From positions 124,001 to 188,000 of the forward strand of contig NZ_JBAKFF010000001.1 in assembly GCF_040838345.1 (NCBI RefSeq): 64,000 nucleotides of DNA. Direction: 5' to 3'. This DNA comes from Spiribacter sp. 1M189 (GTDB taxonomy: Bacteria; Pseudomonadota; Gammaproteobacteria; Nitrococcales; Nitrococcaceae). Made by a program: the position numbers and the translations under genes. This document shows, one piece after another, positions 7,859-15,772 of this stretch (its first letter is position 1; each line of letters begins with the position of its first letter). The notes beneath the pieces were generated by a model, which saw only the letters and a program-made list of their open reading frames with translations, did no database searches and had not been told where the DNA came from.

Positions 7859-8950
7859 ATGGGATTTAAATGCGGTATCGTCGGGCTGCCCAATGTGGGC
7901 AAGTCGACACTCTTCAACGCCCTGACACAGAACGAGATTCCGGCGGAGAACTACCCGTTCTGCACCATCGACCCCAATGTCGGGATCGTGCCGGTGCCGG
8001 ATCCGCGGCTCGATAAGCTGGCCGAACTGGTCAAGCCTGAGAGCGTCATCCCTACGACCATGGAGTTCGTCGACATTGCCGGCCTGGTGGCGGGGGCGTC
8101 ACGCGGCGAGGGGTTGGGCAACCAGTTTCTCGCCAATATCCGCGAGACCGATGCCATCGCTCATGTGGTGCGCTGCTTCGAGAGCGAGGATGTGCATCAC
8201 GTCGAGGGGCGGGTGGATCCGGTGGAGGACATCGAGACCATCAATACCGAGCTGCTGCTGGCCGACATGGATACCGTCGAAAAGGCGCTGGATCGCTACG
8301 AGCGGCGGGCAAAATCGGCGGATAAGGCGGCCATTGCCACCCGTGATGCGCTCAAGGCCATGGCCTCGGCGCTGGATCAGAGTGTGCCGGTGCGGGCGCA
8401 GGATCTCGACGAGACCGGCGAGGCGGTTCTGCGTGAGCTACACCTCCTGACGGCCAAGCCTGTGCTCTATGTCGCCAATGTCAACGAGGAAGGCCTGGTC
8501 GACAATGCCCAGCTGGCCGCCGTCGAGGCCCTCGCGGAGCGCGAGGGAGCGCTGGTGGTGCCGCTCTGCGCCGCCATCGAGGCCGAGCTCGCTCAGCTCG
8601 ATGCGGGAGAACAGGGCGAGCTGCTGGCGGCCTACGAGCTCGAGGAGCCCGGGCTGAACCGCCTGATCCGCACCGGGTATGCCCTGTTGGATCTGCTCAC
8701 GTTCTTCACCGCCGGGCCGAAGGAGGTACGGGCCTGGACCGTGCGCCGCGGTGCGACGGCACCCCAGGCGGCCGGTCGCATCCATACGGATTTCGAGCGC
8801 GGGTTCATTCGCGCCGAGGTCATCGGTTTCGAGGATTATGTGCGGTCGGGCAGTGAGCAGGCGGCCAAGGAGCAGGGCCTGATGCGTCTCGAGGGCAAGG
8901 ATTACGTCATGCGCGAGGGGGATGTCTGCCACTTCCGGTTCAATGTCTGA
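7859..8950 (+). CDS. ychF: Redox-regulated ATPase of the Obg family (YchF/OLA1)
   Basis: A universally conserved P-loop NTPase that prefers ATP over GTP and binds ribosomes; linked to stress responses. 363 residues, exactly family length. G1 loop GLPNVGKST (about residues 8-16), G3 as [10 protein letters not shown], a coiled-coil insertion (about 130-200), and the C-terminal TGS-like domain ([17 protein letters not shown] to the end, with [13 protein letters not shown]). ATG at 7859 follows pth directly. The tRNA-Met promoter begins just after its stop. Confidence 0.97.
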
Positions 8951-8958
8951 GCGGGGAT

Positions 8959-8987
8959 TTGACAGCGCTGCCGCGGCTCTGGATACT
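8959..8987 (+). promoter_or_regulatory. Sigma-70 promoter of tRNA-Met
   Basis: TTGACA at 8959-8964 and GATACT at 8982-8987, separated by exactly 17 bp, placing the start about 12 bp before the mature tRNA end. The region after the -10 (TCCCGTCC) is C/G-rich, like the discriminators of stringently controlled stable-RNA promoters. Consensus match; activity not tested. Confidence 0.75.
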
Positions 8988-9005
8988 TCCCGTCCTTGCC
9001 TGAAT

Positions 9006-9082
9006 GGCTACGTAGCTCAGCTGGTTAGAGCACATCACTCATAATGATGGGGTCGGTGGTTCGAATCCACCCGTAGCCACCA
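9006..9082 (+). tRNA. Elongator tRNA-Met (anticodon CAU)
   Basis: A 77-nt cloverleaf with encoded CCA. Acceptor GGCTACG pairs with CGTAGCC, the D arm has GCTCAGCTGGTTAGAGC, and the anticodon stem CATCA/TGATG encloses CTCATAA with anticodon CAT. The body matches the elongator tRNA-Met of E. coli. It has a paired first acceptor position, so it is not the initiator. A CAT anticodon can also mean tRNA-Ile2, but the sequence fits Met better. It borders the curli region. Confidence 0.95.
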
Positions 9083-9155
9083 TATTCCTGCCTCAAGCCG
9101 ACTGGCACGGGCTGCTGACCGGCTCGGTTACTACGACTGAATATGCAATGCAAAC

Positions 9156-9171
9156 AGGCACTTGGGTGCCT
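9156..9171 (+). other. Small hairpin in the leader of the outer-membrane gene
   Basis: AGGCAC (9156-9161) pairs perfectly with GTGCCT (9166-9171) around TTGG, 48 bp upstream of the start codon at 9219. Could end the tRNA-Met transcript or act in the 5' untranslated region. The U tract is too short to call a terminator with confidence. Confidence 0.3.
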
Positions 9172-9218
9172 CTATCCGGTCTGACTCTGCGTCATCACAA
9201 GCGTGGAGGGAAGACTGC

Positions 9219-9764
9219 ATGAAAAATCGTGCAACCATGCCGGCAGTCCTGCTGGCGGGAACGCTGGCCATGGCCGGCAACGGCGCCGCCGACGCGCGGT
9301 TCATCGAGGAAGCCTATCTGGGGGCCGGCGTCATGCCCTGGTCCTACGAGGGCTCGGGTGAGGATGTCGACGCCATTGGCGGACGACTGGTCGGTGGGGT
9401 CATGTTCAGTGACTACCTGGGCGTTGAGGCGCACTTCGCCTGGATGGGCGAAGACGACTCGGGAACCGACCGCATGGTGGAACTGGATTCGGTGGACAGC
9501 GTGCTGGTGCGGCTCAACCGGCCGCTGAACGAGACCTTCGATGTCTACGCCCTGGCGGGGTTCTCGTCGGTGCGCATGGTGCTGCGACCGTTCACGATCG
9601 CCGGGACCGACGAGGCGCCTTCGGATTCGGGGGTGAGCTTCGGGGCGGGCAGTCAGTTCCGCTTTGCCGAAGATTTCTCGGTGGCGGTGGACGCGGTGAG
9701 CTATCTGAGCGAGCCGGACTTCGACTTCATGGCGCTGAGCGCATCCCTGCGCTGGCATTTCTGA
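9219..9764 (+). CDS. Small outer-membrane beta-barrel protein
   Basis: A 181-residue predicted outer-membrane protein. A signal peptide (about residues 1-25, ending near GAADARF) precedes alternating amphipathic strands such as VDAIGGRLVGGVMFSDYLGVEAHFAW and VYALAGFSSVRMVL, and it ends in LRWHF, the C-terminal phenylalanine signature recognised by the BAM complex. The layout resembles the 8-stranded OmpA/OmpW-like barrel family; no OmpA peptidoglycan-binding domain is present. The ATG at 9219 follows a GGAGGG ribosome site and starts the signal peptide. It is convergent with the curli operon; a functional link is unproven. Confidence 0.75.
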   Translation: MKNRATMPAVLLAGTLAMAGNGAADARFIEEAYLGAGVMPWSYEGSGEDVDAIGGRLVGGVMFSDYLGVEAHFAWMGEDDSGTDRMVELDSVDSVLVRLNRPLNETFDVYALAGFSSVRMVLRPFTIAGTDEAPSDSGVSFGAGSQFRFAEDFSVAVDAVSYLSEPDFDFMALSASLRWHF

Positions 9765-9788
9765 GGCGCGTTCAAACACCCGGAATGC

Positions 9789-9816
9789 GGTCACGCCCGA
9801 TCATCGGGGCGTGACC
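9789..9816. terminator. Bidirectional hairpin between the barrel gene and csgB
   Basis: GGTCACGCCC (9789-9798) and GGGCGTGACC (9807-9816) form a perfect 10-bp stem around an 8-base loop, in the 63-bp gap between two convergent genes. There is no long U tract on either side, so it may rely on the very stable stem. It probably serves both transcripts. Confidence 0.6.
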
Positions 9817-9827
9817 GTCCGGTCGGG

Positions 9828-10268
9828 TCAGCGGCCGACGGTGACCTCGACGTTCAGGCCGTCACCATGCTGGCGCACCGCTACCCCGGTTCGCGTGCCC
9901 GCCTGCTGTTCCACCCGCGCGTTGTTGATATCGCCGACCTGCTGGATGGCGGCTGCCTGCGGGTGCCAGCCGAACTGCAGGATGCGGGCGTTGTTGCCGC
10001 TGCCCTGCTGGTCGATCAGCGCCTCATGGCCCATGCCGCGTTGCAGGATGCCGGCTTGATTGGCGTCGCCCTGCTGATTGATGGCGGCCTCATGCCATAG
10101 ACCCTGCTGATCGATTCGGGCCTGGTTGCCGCTGCCGTTGTGCACGGCCGGGGTCAGTTCCGGCGCGGCCAGATCACCGAGGGGGGAGGCGACACTGACC
10201 GTCCAGGGCGCGCCGCTCAGCAGCGCGCCGAGGAGCGTGCCATACGCCAGTCGGGAAAGCCTTTTCAT
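9828..10268 (-). CDS. csgB: Curlin-repeat protein, probable minor subunit (CsgB-like)
   Basis: A 146-residue secreted protein. A signal peptide (about residues 1-28) is followed by about eight 11-residue curlin units of the form A-x-I-x-Q-x-G-x-x-N, for example ARIDQQGLWH, AAINQQGDANQ, ALIDQQGSGNN and AAAIQQVGDINN. Short length, irregular repeats and a basic C-terminus suit the nucleator CsgB better than the major subunit, which seeds CsgA polymerisation on the cell surface. Last gene of the minus-strand curli locus. Assignment as CsgB rather than a second CsgA is inference. Confidence 0.85.
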   Translation of the reverse strand: MKRLSRLAYGTLLGALLSGAPWTVSVASPLGDLAAPELTPAVHNGSGNQARIDQQGLWHEAAINQQGDANQAGILQRGMGHEALIDQQGSGNNARILQFGWHPQAAAIQQVGDINNARVEQQAGTRTGVAVRQHGDGLNVEVTVGR

Positions 10269-10305
10269 ACCGTGATCTCCTGTCGGGTCGGGCGGTCGGG
10301 CCGGC

Positions 10306-10728
10306 CTAATGGGCCATGACCCAGGCGCCGCTCATGGGATAGGTTTCGCGCACCTGCAGTGGTGCAGCGCCGTCGGGTTCCACATCCAGGCGCACCTCGA
10401 TGCGCCGCGGATCCGTTGTCGAGAGGCTGATCCTGGCGAGCGTCGTCGGACTGGACTGAATCTGCGCTCGACTGCTGTCGCGGCTCCGGGTGGTACCGGC
10501 ATCGCTCACGGATTCAATCACCAGCGCATAGCGGGCTGTCACCGGCCGCGGCGCGATGGCATGCGCGCTGATGGTGACCGTCTGACCCTGTTCGTCGAAT
10601 TCCACCCAGGCGCGAATGGGCGGATCGTTGTCGGCGTCGGCCATGCCGGGCTGGATGCCCACCAGGGTGATCAGGCCGAGGGCGAGTGGAGCAAGGAGTG
10701 CGTGGCTTTGAGGCATGGAGAAGGGCAT
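10306..10728 (-). CDS. csgH: CsgH/CsgC-like curli chaperone
   Basis: A 140-residue exported protein with a signal peptide (residues 1 to about 32) and a compact beta-rich domain: WVEFDEQGQTVTISAHA, then TARYALVIESVSDAG, RAQIQSSPTTLARISLS and RRIEVRLDVEPDG. The strand pattern, with a serine-rich hairpin after YxLxI and a late xVRLDV strand, resembles CsgH, the periplasmic Ig-like inhibitor of premature curli polymerisation (CsgC is the enterobacterial counterpart). No CxC motif. The ATG at 10728 has GGAG 8 bp upstream; the longer frame has no better start. Position between csgA and csgB supports the call. Similarity is weak, so this is a moderate assignment. Confidence 0.65.
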   Translation of the reverse strand: MPFSMPQSHALLAPLALGLITLVGIQPGMADADNDPPIRAWVEFDEQGQTVTISAHAIAPRPVTARYALVIESVSDAGTTRSRDSSRAQIQSSPTTLARISLSTTDPRRIEVRLDVEPDGAAPLQVRETYPMSGAWVMAH

Positions 10729-10751
10729 GGGAATGACTCCGCGGTAGGCGG

Positions 10752-10774
10752 GACCCGCCACCGGGTGGCGGGTC
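10752..10774 (-). terminator. Hairpin after csgA
   Basis: GACCCGCCA (10752-10760) and TGGCGGGTC (10766-10774) form a perfect 9-bp stem with loop CCGGG, 18 bp past the csgA stop on the minus strand and 23 bp before the csgH start. No U tract. A stable stem here could attenuate transcription or protect the csgA mRNA 3' end, giving more major subunit than chaperone and nucleator. Confidence 0.5.
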
Positions 10775-10791
10775 ATCCGTTGGTCAGCGCC

Positions 10792-11544
10792 TTAACGGGC
10801 CGACTGATCGATCGAGGCGTAATGGCCCACCCCGTCCTGGGTCACCTGGGCCATGTTGCCGCGATCCCGCTGGGTCACTTCGGCGACATGGTAGGAGCCG
10901 CTCTGCAGGATATCGGTCATGTTGCCACGACCCCGCTGATTGACCCTGGCGACGCTCTCGAATGCGTCATCCTGGGCCACCGTCATCACGTTTTCCCGGC
11001 CGCGCTGACGGAGCTCGGCGTAGTTGCCACCCCAACCCGACTGCTCCAGCGTCATCTCGTTCATGCGGCCGCGCTGATCCACATCGGCCACGTTGCCCCA
11101 GTCCTCCTGGGTAATGGTGATGCTGCCTTCGCGACCACGCTGGGTGACATCCGAGGTGTTCGACCAGCCGTCCTGGTTGATCTCCACCATGCCGTCACGG
11201 CCACGCCGGTCGATCATGGCACTGTTGTTGCCACCGCCGGTCTGGTTGATGGTGGTCTCGTTACCGCGGCCCTCCTGCTCGATGGAGGCCTCCTGCTGAT
11301 AGCCGCTCTGGGTGATCGTGGCGGTCAGCTCCCGGCCGTCCTGCTCGATGCTGGCGACATGGTCGACGCCGTCCTGGTTGATGGTGGCCATATTGGCGCC
11401 AAAGCCGCCGCCGTTACCCATGCCGCCGCCGCCATGGTCGCCGCCGCCGTGATCGTGATCATCCTGCGCCATGGCAGTGCCCATGGTCATGCCGAGCATG
11501 AGCGCCAGCGAGAGGGCAGAAACCGTTTTGGGCTTCCTGATCAT
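10792..11544 (-). CDS. csgA: Large curlin-repeat amyloid subunit (CsgA-like)
   Basis: Probable major curli fibre subunit, 250 residues against about 150 in E. coli. A signal peptide ends near AMAQ (residue 26) and a His/Gly/Asp-rich linker follows (about 27-49, DDHDHGGGDHGGGG). The rest is about 18 units of 11 residues with the curlin pattern (x-I/V-x-Q-x-G-x-x-N), such as ATINQDGVDH, SIEQDGREL, TITQSGYQQ and TINQTGGGNN. From about residue 115 the units alternate between an Arg-rich type (VTQRGREG, VDQRGRMN, LRQRGREN, VNQRGRGN) and a neutral type (TLEQSGWGGN, ILQSGSYH). AGGAG lies just upstream of the ATG. Follows a long hairpin after csgG and may have its own promoter. Confidence 0.88.
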   Translation of the reverse strand: MIRKPKTVSALSLALMLGMTMGTAMAQDDHDHGGGDHGGGGMGNGGGFGANMATINQDGVDHVASIEQDGRELTATITQSGYQQEASIEQEGRGNETTINQTGGGNNSAMIDRRGRDGMVEINQDGWSNTSDVTQRGREGSITITQEDWGNVADVDQRGRMNEMTLEQSGWGGNYAELRQRGRENVMTVAQDDAFESVARVNQRGRGNMTDILQSGSYHVAEVTQRDRGNMAQVTQDGVGHYASIDQSAR

Positions 11545-11587
11545 GGTGTTCTCCTGTATTCCGAATCGCGAAAAAATGATTGCGTGA

Positions 11588-11638
11588 TGCCCCTGGGGTT
11601 CTTCGGCAATTCCGTTTGCCGGAGAACCCGTCGGGGCA
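11588..11638 (-). other. Long imperfect hairpin between csgG and csgA
   Basis: On the minus strand TGCCCC, GGGTTCT and CGGCAA pair in order with TTGCCG, AGAACCC and GGGGCA, giving about 19 paired bases with small internal loops and the apex ACGGAA. A T6 run (11576-11571) follows 11 bp later, further than usual for an intrinsic terminator. The element sits 43 bp upstream of the csgA start, so it could end csgDEFG transcription, act as an mRNA processing site, or control csgA translation. Confidence 0.55.
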
Positions 11639-11704
11639 ATTCCAGAGTAGGTTCAGGGGAGGGTGGTCGGAATACGGAATGCGACGGAAATGATGGCCGG
11701 GGAG

Positions 11705-12562
11705 TCAGGAACTCTGCGGTGATTCCTGGCGGGCCGTTTCCTGGTGCTCGAGAAACGCCTGGTTGTAGGTCTGGATCACGGGAGCATTCCAGTCATCGGC
11801 ATTGGCGAGACGCCAGTGATCCTCGGAAAGTCCACGGACAATCAGATGGATCAATGCTGCGTTAATGGCGTCATGGGTGGCCAGATAACGGGGCTCGTTA
11901 TAGGTGTAGCCCGCTTCGATCTCGAGCAGTCGCTGATTGCGCACGAAACGGAAAAGCCCGCCTTCGAGCTGATAGGAATAGATGGTCTTGGTCGTGGTGA
12001 CGGCGGCCAGGACCTCGCCATTGCTCACGTTGACCGCGCGCAGGCTCACCGTCACCTGATCGATGACATAGGCCTCGCTGGCACCCAGGCCAAAGTAACG
12101 GGCCCCGAAACCGCCGGTGGTGGTGTTGCGGTCATAGCCGGTGACCCCCCCCTCGAACAGCACCCGCGCGTCCTGGAGCGTGGCGACGTTGGTATTGAGT
12201 TGACGGGCGACGCGACGCTCGGTGAGCAGATCCTGCAACCCCTCCCGCTCCAGCGGGCGGAACCAGCCCGAGCGTAATAACGCCTCGGTGAGTAGGCTGC
12301 CGCCGCCCTGGGTGACCGCGGTGGAAAGGTTGCTGCTGGGCGACTCGCGGTACTGCCCGGTGAGATCGCGGAAGCCGTAGACGGCCGCTGGAATGACCCC
12401 GGCCGGGTCCGGCAGTTCGAGCAGATCGCCATAGGTGGTCGATGCCGATGCCAGACCGGGGCGCTCCATGGTGGCCCAGTCGGGGGGGCGATCGCCATCA
12501 AGGGTGGTACAGCCCACGATGACGAACCCCATGGACAGAATCAGGCTGCGTTTGACGATCAT
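11705..12562 (-). CDS. csgG: Curli secretion channel lipoprotein CsgG
   Basis: CsgG forms the nonameric outer-membrane pore that exports curli subunits. 285 residues, close to the E. coli length. The lipobox is VIVGC (Cys18). Conserved family stretches include AVYGFRDLTGQYRESP, GGGSLLTEALLRSGWFRPLEREGLQDLLTERR and SLRAVNVSNGEVLAAVTTTKTIYSYQ, covering the periplasmic core and the transmembrane hairpins. Overlaps csgF by 4 bp (ATGA), so secretion components are made together. Confidence 0.96.
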   Translation of the reverse strand: MIVKRSLILSMGFVIVGCTTLDGDRPPDWATMERPGLASASTTYGDLLELPDPAGVIPAAVYGFRDLTGQYRESPSSNLSTAVTQGGGSLLTEALLRSGWFRPLEREGLQDLLTERRVARQLNTNVATLQDARVLFEGGVTGYDRNTTTGGFGARYFGLGASEAYVIDQVTVSLRAVNVSNGEVLAAVTTTKTIYSYQLEGGLFRFVRNQRLLEIEAGYTYNEPRYLATHDAINAALIHLIVRGLSEDHWRLANADDWNAPVIQTYNQAFLEHQETARQESPQSS

Positions 12563-12987
12563 AGCTGGTTGTTGATGTTGATTTCGGTGAATTCGCTGCT
12601 CCCCTCATCCCTTGCAAAGATCGACAGCTCGCCTTCGGTTTCGGTGAAGCGCAGTTCGAAGTCGCCGATGCTGAAGAGCCGTGTGCCGTCGAACGGGATC
12701 AGCTGGCCCTCGTCATCGAGCAGGCCGATGTTGCTGGTGCTCGCCCGCGAGACATCGCGCAGCAGTGCCTCCTGCAGGTCTTCCTCGAAGCGTTCGATGG
12801 AAGTGCGCGCGGGCCGCCGTGCCGCCTGCAGCGGCGCCCGGCTGGTATCCTGGGTGGTGGCGCGCTGAAAGCGCTGGCTCAGCATGCCGGGATCACCCGA
12901 CTGGATGGGCTGATAGGTGAGGTCGGCCTGGGCCGTGGCGGCGAGGCCAATGCCTAGCAGGCAAAGGATGGGCATTCGTCCCTGCAT
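12559..12987 (-). CDS. csgF: Curli assembly factor CsgF
   Basis: CsgF binds the CsgG channel at the cell surface and couples export to CsgB nucleation. 142 residues with a signal peptide ending near AQA (residue 20). The mature N-terminus is DLTYQPIQSGDPGM; in E. coli this part (the channel-plugging segment) holds a GGNPxNG motif that is not obvious here. The C-terminal half (IERFEEDLQEALL, then IGDFELRFTETEGELSIFARDE and INI strands) matches the family well. ATG at 12987 follows a GGAG. Lies between csgE and csgG. Confidence 0.9.
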   Translation of the reverse strand: MQGRMPILCLLGIGLAATAQADLTYQPIQSGDPGMLSQRFQRATTQDTSRAPLQAARRPARTSIERFEEDLQEALLRDVSRASTSNIGLLDDEGQLIPFDGTRLFSIGDFELRFTETEGELSIFARDEGSSEFTEININNQL

Positions 12988-13005
12988 GATGTCGCTCCTT
13001 GCGTG

Positions 13006-13470
13006 TCATTCGCCGGTCTGGTTGCGAAGTCTCGTCTGATAGTCGTCGATAATGCGGCTCACCTCCGCCACCGCCTGTTGGGCGGTTTCCTCGGGCGAGG
13101 GATTGCGCGGCCACACGCGGACTTGATAGATCGCCTGGCGCTGGTAGCGCACGATCACCTCGGTGCCCTCGCTCATCCAGGGCCGCTCTTCGATGGTGAT
13201 CACGCCGTCGGCCACCACGGGCTGGCTGCGCCAGTGGCTGGCGAAGGCATCGCTGAAGCGGTCGCCCAGGGCGGTCACGGTGCGTTGCAGGACCATGTTG
13301 TCCAGGCCGTCGTTCTCCAGCGTGCCATCGGGCAGCGGCGGCGCTTCCAGCGGGCGCCCGTCGTCGATGGTGCCGTTCGCCTGATCCTCGGCCACGACAT
13401 GCATGCCGGCGAGGGCGAGGACAATCAGCGCGATACCGGCCCATCCGCGATGGTGCCGGTGCCCGGTCAT
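13006..13470 (-). CDS. csgE: Curli export cap protein CsgE
   Basis: Periplasmic factor that caps CsgG and gives export specificity for curli subunits. 154 residues with an N-terminal hydrophobic signal (GWAGIALIVLALAGMHVVA). The family core is visible as LQRTVTALGDRFSDAFASHW, GVITIEERPWMSEGTEVIVRY and IYQVRVWPRN. The ATG at 13470 overlaps the csgD stop (ATGA); the frame extends further upstream but without a better start. Its neighbours csgD and csgF fix the identity. Confidence 0.9.
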   Translation of the reverse strand: MTGHRHHRGWAGIALIVLALAGMHVVAEDQANGTIDDGRPLEAPPLPDGTLENDGLDNMVLQRTVTALGDRFSDAFASHWRSQPVVADGVITIEERPWMSEGTEVIVRYQRQAIYQVRVWPRNPSPEETAQQAVAEVSRIIDDYQTRLRNQTGE

Positions 13471-14174
13471 CGGCTGTCGACGAGCGGTAACGCCCGCTGT
13501 GCCCACATGGCGGCGGCGACGCGATTGGTGCAGCCGATCTTTCGATAGGCGTTGTAGAGATGCGTCTTGACGGTATGCGGGCTCACCGAGAGCTGGTCGG
13601 CAATGTGGTCATTGCTGAGGCCGAGCGCGAGGGCACGCAGCACGGCCATCTCCTTGCGGGTGAGCGTCTCGAGGTGATTCGCGATGCCGGCCCGGGTACG
13701 GCCGGTCTCGGGCTGGACCACGCTGCGGATCTTGGCGAGCAACTGGTCGACGGATTCGTTGTCGTGAAACGCCGCGACAACATCGCGTCGGCCCATGAAG
13801 TGCTGTAGATCGGCATTGGAGGGGACGTTCAGCAGGATCATCGGAGTCGTTGGCTTGCGCGAATCCGTTGTGGTGGCCCCATCGCCCAGCAGGTCGGCCA
13901 CGGCGCGGTCGCTGCTGCGGATATCGAGAAGGATCAGGGCGGGGCGCTCGCACTGCATGAGGGCATTCAGCTGCGAGGGGGAGGCCAGGTAGGTGCGGCA
14001 GATGCCATAGTCGGAAAGATACTTGCCCATCAATCTATTCTGGATGGTTGAATCGCAGAGCAGCATGGCGGTGGGAAGGGGGGTGGCCGGCTCAGTTGAT
14101 AACCCGAACCGGGCCGAATAATGGCCATCCGGCTTGGCCGATTGAAACGCAGTTTTCTGGGCATTCCTTTCCAT
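13467..14174 (-). CDS. csgD: LuxR-family curli regulator (CsgD-like)
   Basis: Transcription factor expected to switch on curli genes. 235 residues: an N-terminal receiver-like domain (about 35-150, with ALILLDIRSSDRAVADLL, where an Asp stands at the usual phosphorylation strand) and a C-terminal LuxR helix-turn-helix (about 165-225, LTRKEMAVLRALALGLSN then SVSPHTVKTHLYNAYRKIGC). VKTHLYN is also found in E. coli CsgD. First gene of the csgDEFG unit, unlike E. coli where csgD and csgBA are divergent. GAGGT precedes the ATG. Upstream lies an AT-rich regulatory region. Confidence 0.88.
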   Translation of the reverse strand: MERNAQKTAFQSAKPDGHYSARFGLSTEPATPLPTAMLLCDSTIQNRLMGKYLSDYGICRTYLASPSQLNALMQCERPALILLDIRSSDRAVADLLGDGATTTDSRKPTTPMILLNVPSNADLQHFMGRRDVVAAFHDNESVDQLLAKIRSVVQPETGRTRAGIANHLETLTRKEMAVLRALALGLSNDHIADQLSVSPHTVKTHLYNAYRKIGCTNRVAAAMWAQRALPLVDSR

Positions 14175-14416
14175 GGTTTACCTCGATACGGAATGGATGG
14201 GCTGATGGAGTGAATCATAGAGTCTGAATCTGATGCTTTTCCACACGCTTTGGATTGAGGCCAGTTAGGAACTTGTCATTAGAAATTACTTTACCTGATT
14301 TCTGGATATAAAGGATATTTAAAAAGCATGCTTCGAATGAACTAGTTCGAACAGGGGGGTAATGGATCGGGAGGGGCTTCCCGAATGAAACGGCGAACGG
14401 AAAAAAGCGGAAAGAA
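14175..14416 (-). promoter_or_regulatory. AT-rich csgD upstream region with palindromes
   Basis: A 242-bp gap between the mgtE stop and the csgD start, clearly richer in A/T than the rest of the window (for example AT-rich runs at 14280-14325). It contains TTCGAA (14332-14337), the perfect palindrome GAACTAGTTC (14339-14348) and a second TTCGAA (14346-14351), plus GCATGC at 14326-14331. These look like regulator binding sites for csgD. No convincing -35/-10 pair could be chosen by eye. Confidence 0.5.
14367..14384 (-). terminator. Possible mgtE terminator hairpin
   Basis: TCGGGA (14367-14372) pairs with TCCCGA (14379-14384) around a 6-base loop, 32 bp past the mgtE stop on the minus strand. 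A T6 run precedes rather than follows the stem on that strand, so the call is weak. It would isolate csgD from mgtE transcription. Confidence 0.35.
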
Positions 14417-15772
14417 TTAAAGCAGGAAGAACGTAGCGAGTCCGAGAAAGGACATGAATCCGATGACATCGGTGACGGTGGTGAGAACGACACCGCCGGC
14501 AAGGGCCGGATCAACGCCGAAGCGTTTGAGAACGAGCGGCACGCCGACACCGGAGAGGGCCGCGACGACGAGATTGATGGTCATGGCGGCGGCGATGATC
14601 GCGCCCAGTGCCGGCCGGCCGAACCAGAGAATGGCGATACCGGCGAGGATTCCGGCCCACAGGAGGCCGTTGAGCACACCGATGCCGAGCTCCTTGTAGA
14701 GCAGCGCCCGCGTGTTGCGTGAGGCGATCTGCCCCAGTGCCAGCGCCCGGATGACCAGCGCCAGCGTCTGCGTGCCGGCGATGCCGCCCATGCTGGCCAC
14801 CACGGGCATCAGCACGGCCAGGGCGACGACCTGCTGGATGGTGGCCTCGAAGAGGCCGATCACATAGGCGGCGAGCAGCGCGGTGAGCAGATTCAGGCCC
14901 AGCCAGACGGCCCGGCGCCGCGTGCTGGACCAGATCGGTGCGAACAGGTCTTCTTCCTCGCCGAGGCCCGCCATGCTGAGGATGGAGCGCTCGGCCTCCT
15001 CCCGGATGACGTCGACTACGTCGTCGATGGTGATCCGGCCGATGAGCCGGCCGCGGGCATCCAGCACCGGCGCCGAGATCAGGTCACGGTCCTCGAACAT
15101 CTTGGCCACTTCGCGATCCGACGTCTCCGCGGGGATCGCGACCGCCTCGGTATCCAGCACATCCTCGACACGGCCGGCGGGATCGCGGGTCAACAGATCA
15201 CTGACCCGGAGTACGCCCAGGAAATGATCGAAGCGGCTGACCACGAACAGGTGGTCGGTGAGTTCGGGCATCTCCCCGCGCATGCGCAGGTAGCGCAGCA
15301 CCACATCCAGGCTGACGTCGGGCCTCACCGTCACGGTATCGGTGTTCATCAGCCCGCCGGCGCTGTCCTCCGGGTAGGCGAGCACCGCTTCGAGCCGCTG
15401 GCGGTTCTGATTGTCGAGCGAACGCAGGATCTCGCCGGTCAGTGTCTTGGGCAGGTCCTGCATGAAGTCGGCGAGGTCGTCCATGTCCATGCCGGAGGTG
15501 GCCGCCAGCAGCTCCTGGTCGTCCATCTCCCGGATCAGCCCGCTGCGTACCTCATCGTTGACCTGCAGCAGCACATCGCCGCCGTTGGCCTCGTCCACCA
15601 GCTCCCAGAGAAGCTTGCGCTCGGGGGCCGGAAAGGACTCGAGCAGATTGGCTATTTCGGCGGGATGCAGCGCGTTGAGCATGCGGCGTGCCTCCGGCAC
15701 CGTCCCGCCCTGCAGCAGGTCGGTGACGGTCTCGGCGACGCGCCCCTGCTTGTTCTCGCGTTCCTCTGCCAT
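14417..15772 (-). CDS. mgtE: Magnesium transporter MgtE
   Basis: Mg2+-selective inner-membrane channel gated by cytosolic Mg2+. 451 residues, the full family length: N-terminal superhelical domain (about 1-130, LHPAEIANLLESFPAPERKLLWEL), two CBS domains (about 135-260, with SAGGLMNTDTVTVRPD and LIGRITIDDVVDVIREE), a plug helix and a C-terminal five-helix membrane domain with the pore segment ASMGGIAGTQTLALVIRALALG. Follows HPr by 18 bp, a common order in gammaproteobacteria. Confidence 0.96.
   Translation of the reverse strand: MAEERENKQGRVAETVTDLLQGGTVPEARRMLNALHPAEIANLLESFPAPERKLLWELVDEANGGDVLLQVNDEVRSGLIREMDDQELLAATSGMDMDDLADFMQDLPKTLTGEILRSLDNQNRQRLEAVLAYPEDSAGGLMNTDTVTVRPDVSLDVVLRYLRMRGEMPELTDHLFVVSRFDHFLGVLRVSDLLTRDPAGRVEDVLDTEAVAIPAETSDREVAKMFEDRDLISAPVLDARGRLIGRITIDDVVDVIREEAERSILSMAGLGEEEDLFAPIWSSTRRRAVWLGLNLLTALLAAYVIGLFEATIQQVVALAVLMPVVASMGGIAGTQTLALVIRALALGQIASRNTRALLYKELGIGVLNGLLWAGILAGIAILWFGRPALGAIIAAAMTINLVVAALSGVGVPLVLKRFGVDPALAGGVVLTTVTDVIGFMSFLGLATFFLL

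Follow-up and report, generated by a model that had tools for sequence, protein, structure and literature searches.

The curli gene cluster of Spiribacter sp. 1M189, a moderate halophile, raises the question of whether the arginines that recur through its major subunit form an ordered surface feature kept by selection, and what a row of like charges on a functional amyloid might do in brine. We addressed it within a stretch of 64,000 nucleotides of that genome (positions 124,001 to 188,000 of contig NZ_JBAKFF010000001.1; hereafter the window), in related genomes, and in a broader set of curlins.

The gene concerned (10792-11544, minus strand; 250 residues, ATG start) sits between csgG and a csgH-like gene. 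Its product matches the Pfam curlin repeat Curlin_rpt (PF07012) at an E-value of 8.2e-33 and 112.5 bits (cut-off 20.7), and it shares its locus, entirely on the minus strand, with a csgB-like gene and with csgE, csgF and csgG; the protein is the major curlin CsgA of this csg cluster, as an earlier reading of the sequence alone (the sequence-only reading) had recognized. On the NCBIfam equivalog for CsgA (NF007470) it scores 77.1 bits against a cut-off of 160, and the csgB model NF007506 scores it higher, at 104.5 bits, still under its own cut-off of 165; because these models, 150 residues long, suit enterobacterial proteins of five repeats, the miss bears on membership of that subgroup. The remaining components comprise a csgB-like minor curlin of 146 residues (9828-10268; PF07012, E 2.2e-11; NF007506, 62.1 bits, under the cut-off of 165), the secretion channel csgG (11705-12562; PF03783, E 1.9e-61), csgF (12559-12987; PF10614, E 1.8e-6, 28.6 bits, cut-off 25.8), csgE (13006-13506; PF10627, E 1.1e-18) and a csgD-like LuxR-type regulator (13467-14174; PF00196, E 2.4e-19; NF007505, E 7.2e-21, under its cut-off), all on the minus strand. 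Throughout this genome of 1.95 Mb, all ten curlin-repeat matches fall inside csgA and the csgB-like gene.

The csgA product opens with a putative signal peptide (residues 1-26; 11467-11544, minus strand), assigned from its hydrophobic start with cleavage after AMA judged by eye, and continues through an Asp/His/Gly-rich linker (residues 27-52; 11389-11466) into the predicted curlin solenoid (residues 53-250; 10795-11388), delimited by unit segmentation and AlphaFold2. Segmentation by a simple scoring scheme (A at unit position 1, I or V at 3, Q at 5, G at 7 and N at 10) yielded, from residue 53, 17 complete units, each 11 or 12 residues long, followed by a C-terminal half unit, ASIDQSAR, making 18 strands or nine two-strand turns. 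The original estimate of about 18 units was accurate, as was the expectation of a solenoid longer than that of Escherichia coli K-12 CsgA, which has nine solenoid units and a short tail. Length had also been put forward as a novelty, a proposal that does not survive comparison with repeat numbers of 4-62 in the accessible part of PMC10192328, up to 22 motifs in that of PMC3521004, and 3-52 repeats in that of PMC12822426.

The distinctive feature is the register of the arginines. Unit position 8 is Arg (QxGR) in 9/9 even units and 0/9 odd units, producing a column at residues 71, 93, 116, 138, 160, 183, 206, 228 and 250 (10795-11334, minus strand) that is defined by unit segmentation and codon comparison; position 6 is Arg in six of the nine even units and again in none of the odd. 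Even units contain all 18 Arg of the mature protein, which has no Lys. The alternation of RGR-type units previously described is therefore real, and it is present in the second half of the protein as proposed, but it is not limited to that half, beginning at unit 2 and recurring through the first half as GREL, GRGN and GRDG. Nor are the alternating partners neutral, as they had been called: odd units contain 13 Asp plus Glu with no Arg or Lys, and even units 18 Asp plus Glu with 18 Arg. Six of the nine odd units, and no even unit, carry an aromatic residue at position 8 or 9. When exposed residues were shuffled over exposed positions 20,000 times, no arrangement was as pure as the natural one, the highest column reaching 0.78.

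CsgG is present in six of 59 genomes around the window, the window included. Four carriers belong to the genus (the window, G003, G009 and G010, of 14 members) and two to another family of the order; in a fifth member, G007, csgA is not assembled, because csgD and csgE lie at a contig end. The CsgA proteins of the window, G010, G009 and G003 comprise 18, 18, 22 and 22 units and place Arg at position 8 in 9/9, 9/9, 10/11 and 10/11 even units respectively, for a total of 38/40 as against 0/40 odd units, with N as the replacement in one even unit each of G009 and G003. Since G010 CsgA is 93% identical to that of the window, and G009 and G003 (52-53% identical to it) constitute a second pair, the comparison covers about two well-separated lineages, and four species are few. 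An aromatic at position 8 or 9 recurs across the four species in 25/40 odd units and 0/40 even.

Codon comparison within each pair showed how the column has been maintained. Between G009 and G003, even-unit codons for the position-8 Arg include 3 identical, 8 synonymous and 0 non-synonymous (all codons: 119, 63 and 57), and between the window and G010 the corresponding numbers are 5, 4 and 0 (all codons: 148, 37 and 13). Pooled over the two pairs, synonymous and non-synonymous differences stand at 12:0 for these Arg codons versus 88:70 for other unit codons (Fisher 0.0016, to be taken, like the Fisher value below, as a guide only, because codons within a single protein do not vary independently). 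Within a protein, the other exposed positions of even units share just 15-23% mutual identity, and the units have diverged to 54-58% nucleotide identity; with Arg retained among positions so diverged, the column is not the product of fresh duplication. An origin as a passive by-product of repeat duplication or Arg-rich composition, lacking any selected role, would accord with the preference of this genome for Arg over Lys (K/(K+R) of 0.21 over six window genes) and with repeat numbers that vary by species, 18 versus 22, yet it sits poorly with an Arg that changes only synonymously while its surroundings diverge and with a column that none of the shuffles matched; we consider that account improbable. 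The codon and repeat comparisons indicate instead that the Arg column is kept by selection and, within this sample, it is confined to one genus.

A separate candidate, that Arg had replaced the conserved Asn of the turn, was dropped, as loss of Asn is not peculiar to Arg units: in the four species Asn holds position 10 in 18/36 complete even units and 19/34 eleven-residue odd units, and in other curlins Arg at position 8 is accompanied by Asn at position 10 in 30/37 cases.

The column does not make the protein basic. Mature CsgA of the window has a pI of 4.57, with 35 Asp plus Glu versus 18 Arg, and is an acidic protein with an Arg edge; the line of Arg proposed along one edge of the fibre is supported, with its edge taken from the unit register. 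This balance bears on the idea, raised in the sequence-only reading beside a possible tuning for salt, that the stripe serves as a cationic rail for acidic polymers, namely extracellular DNA, acidic polysaccharide or acidic cell surfaces. A regular one-edge column built of Arg without any Lys, and supplemented by the second Arg at position 6, is in its favour; opposed to it are the acidic net charge, the matching or outnumbering of even-unit Arg by Asp plus Glu (18/18 in the window, 17/19 in G010, 16/23 in G009 and 16/21 in G003), and the weakening of long-range attraction by high salt. Acidic net charge and acidic neighbours of the Arg together weaken any simple polycation reading, and we retain the rail as a tentative possibility. 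Asp or Glu is found at exposed position 2, 4, 6 or 9 in 34/36 complete even units and 29/40 odd units (Fisher 0.014), so that acidic neighbours are, given their frequency in odd units, weakly special to Arg units; their presence in nearly all complete even units fits short-range pairing better than a bare polycation, without amounting to proof.

How widely such a column occurs was assessed in 259 sequences, which included the window, its own and relatives' loci, E. coli K-12 and five plasmid stretches. The set was fed by searches with CsgA of 369 class genomes and, with a profile model of the Arg-type unit (A2), of 398 phylum, 369 class, 54 order and 78 further genomes, taking matches within E-value limits; Bacteroidota were covered by named-record loci and a plasmid search, from which five of 13 matched plasmid records were used and a Spirosoma record left out. 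Near-identical Caballeronia and Alcanivorax rows were kept as separate rows. Distinct curlin stretches numbered 208 with at least five units, 127 with at least eight and 17 with at least 16, the four CsgA of the genus included. An Arg/Lys column of at least 0.9 was found in 4/127 stretches of at least eight units, all four being the CsgA proteins of the genus, and in none outside it. Units were called odd or even by counting from the start of each stretch, and a stretch ended wherever a unit was irregular, a procedure that can conceal columns in irregular curlins; with just 17 stretches reaching 16 units, the survey could also have overlooked a long column elsewhere. Among the 54 genomes of the order, A2 matched only the six that bear CsgG, and the curlins of the two from the other family (L095 and L096) lack the column. 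The sequence-only reading had proposed that its novelty would fall if relatives shared the pattern; they do so inside the genus and not outside it, and absence from the curlins compared beyond the genus is borne out.

In the subset that omits own-genome loci, relatives' duplicates and L190-L226, the runner-up Arg/Lys columns were 0.80 of 5 units (L023), 0.75 of 4 (L231) and 0.75 of 4 in the window's own csgB; Arg occupied position 8 in 43/1851 units outside the genus, and acidic columns of at least 0.9 appeared in four other curlins. One of these, a 22-unit curlin (L107, 1270-1995), mirrors the Arg column in acidic form: 11/11 of its units of one parity are acidic at position 4. E. coli K-12 CsgA, which has the same repeat, a Gly-rich N-terminal linker and homologous secretion genes, has no Arg column, its top Arg/Lys column being 0.50 of 4 units. 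The Galbibacter orientalis curlin (L071, 2508-3104) is likewise long and regular, with repeated QDGRRN turns, but its column is incomplete, with Arg or Lys at position 9 in 6/9 units of one parity (0.67). A literature search linking Spiribacter with curli, or for a halophilic CsgA amyloid solenoid, found nothing, and an Arg ladder was not found in the accessible parts of PMC10192328, PMC3521004, PMC9900396, PMC4838910, PMC12345136 and PMC12822426. The window thus encodes a known kind of protein, CsgA, with a new surface pattern, the genus-limited Arg column. Firm across the four species are the periodicity of Arg, its restriction to even units, the exclusively synonymous differences among position-8 codons, and the lack of a column in the other curlins compared.

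The mature protein was predicted by AlphaFold2 to form a beta-solenoid of stacked two-strand turns, as had been anticipated, both with an alignment of four orthologues (model 1; pLDDT 85.9, pTM 0.80) and with one of 32 curlins (model 2; pLDDT 83.8, pTM 0.79), although its handedness is doubtful; in model 1, mature residues 1-3 and 5-22, within the linker, have a pLDDT below 50. The closest solved relative by sequence is the CsgA R15.5 of Pontibacter korlensis (PDB 8c50; phmmer, E 3.7e-24), which is also the top fold match after realignment (model 1: Z 23.4, 211 residues, rmsd 8.6, 35% identity; model 2: Z 24.2, 201 residues, rmsd 8.0, 35% identity). Foldseek against the PDB returned nothing at an E-value of 0.001 or better, and 8c50, at rank 19, came first upon realignment only; E. 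coli 8enq matched model 2 across 110 residues (Z 13.8, rmsd 8.2). SufB and SufD, whose helices are right-handed, superpose on the models at an rmsd of 2.5-3.7, and the contrast with 8.0-8.6 for 8c50 implies that the models probably have the opposite hand to 8c50. Sparse alignments often yield right-handed curlin models, and deep alignments and fibres support the left hand (PMC10192328, accessible part); our models probably represent this published artefact, which the alignment of 32 rows did not remove. The order of strands and edges is independent of hand.

Taken as a whole, the best explanation, to which we assign a probability of roughly 0.7, is a CsgA solenoid of nine two-strand turns with an Arg ladder on one edge. 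CsgA would be exported via CsgG, CsgE and CsgF and would then fold into a solenoid whose two sheets are built from odd and from even units respectively, such that every even-to-odd turn places its Arg alike and builds a ladder of one Arg per rung on a single edge, while the opposite turn would often bear Trp, Tyr or Phe; the one-edge placement we infer from the unit register. Because 18 and 22 are even numbers, head-to-tail subunits would continue the same edge and might extend the ladder along the whole fibre; connectivity between CsgA subunits within fibres is disputed (PMC12345136, accessible part). With less certainty, the ladder may act at short range, pairing with adjacent acidic residues and with the turn backbone and so holding the turns together in brine, and it could present a stripe of guanidinium groups that neighbouring fibres or an acidic matrix might contact.

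Exposed positions of curlin units are mostly polar or charged, Arg among them, and ladders of Asp and Glu are known (PMC10192328, accessible part). From that same source, P. korlensis R15.5, like the window protein, is a long curlin solenoid one of whose sheets bears charged ladders; it differs in that its ladders are of Asp and Glu (20% acidic, pI 2.98) rather than Arg, and in ending with a half repeat, by which its charged patch alternates sides, whereas the unit number in the window is even. A bolder proposal, which we regard as unlikely in its full form, would make curli of these halophiles a two-edged fibre, having one continuous Arg edge and one aromatic-rich edge, in which an even unit number stops the swapping of sides and the Arg edge, working at short range, would go on holding acidic polymers or partner fibres in brine where ordinary electrostatic adhesion and ordinary curli gatekeeping are switched off.

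As a moderate halophile, Spiribacter lives above 600 mM NaCl, and this matters for a further alternative, in which the Arg residues are electrostatic gatekeepers that pair with Asp or Glu in the unfolded chain and slow nucleation. Gatekeeping of this kind, by Arg/Lys-Asp pairs that affect assembly, has been demonstrated in a Citrobacter youngae CsgA that bears gatekeeper Asp (PMC9900396, accessible part), and acidic residues are frequent in the even units. The gatekeepers of C. youngae, however, are the single residues R62 and K107 as opposed to a periodic column, placement in a single column is not required for such a role, and NaCl up to 600 mM screens the effect (PMC9900396). Inhibition by CsgC also drops sharply from 200 to 500 mM salt (PMC4838910, accessible part). 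Given that these published electrostatic effects fade with salt, short-range stacked or paired Arg is likelier than gatekeeping in a halophile, and we rate gatekeeping as rather unlikely. The Arg ladder is of wider use: as a naturally kept column obeying a simple repeat rule, it allows one to ask directly whether like charges stacked along a functional amyloid serve its structure, its adhesion or its assembly kinetics; it bears on curli at salt concentrations where the published effects of CsgC and of gatekeeping fade (PMC4838910, PMC9900396); and the protein is a possible scaffold for ordered display of guanidinium groups.

The linker preceding the solenoid had been proposed to bind metal. 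A run rich in His, Asp and Gly is indeed present, the 12 residues that follow the assumed cleavage site including three His and four Asp, and the G009 linker has four His; its His residues are not conserved, however, being absent from G003 and from G010, whose corresponding linker reads QNNGGGMGNGGG despite 93% identity of the two CsgA proteins. A Gly-rich flexible start is not special, because that of E. coli CsgA is also Gly-rich, with one His. The linker was accordingly dropped as a conserved metal site, and a metal-binding module there appears highly improbable.

The csg block (8950-14417) is flanked by the convergent genes ychF and mgtE. Four other members of the genus (G001, G006, G012 and G013) have a gap of approximately 140-170 bp between ychF and mgtE without csg genes, and it is here that the csg cluster, together with an outer-membrane barrel gene, lies in the four curli species, which indicates that the locus was gained or lost as one block at a single site; the remaining members were uninformative in this comparison.

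Next to csgA, the gene at 10306-10776 (minus strand; 156 residues) resembles the curlin chaperone gene csgH (NF041112, 50.9 bits, cut-off 35) and has no Pfam match. A distant cysteine pair is a defining criterion for CsgH (PMC4838910, accessible part), and the 156-residue protein of the window contains no Cys, as is the case downstream of the likely start Met in the CsgH-like proteins of the three relatives; we therefore name it CsgH-like only. A supposed inversion of charge between CsgA and this protein was discarded, the pattern being inconsistent across the four species: over the last 110 residues, two of them have a pI of 5.0 and 5.4, and the others 10.0 and 10.9. The barrel gene (PF13505; 9162-9764), convergent to csgB and present in all four curli species, is possibly a curli accessory; a barrel gene of 39% identity also adjoins the csgB-like gene in L096, which belongs to another family.
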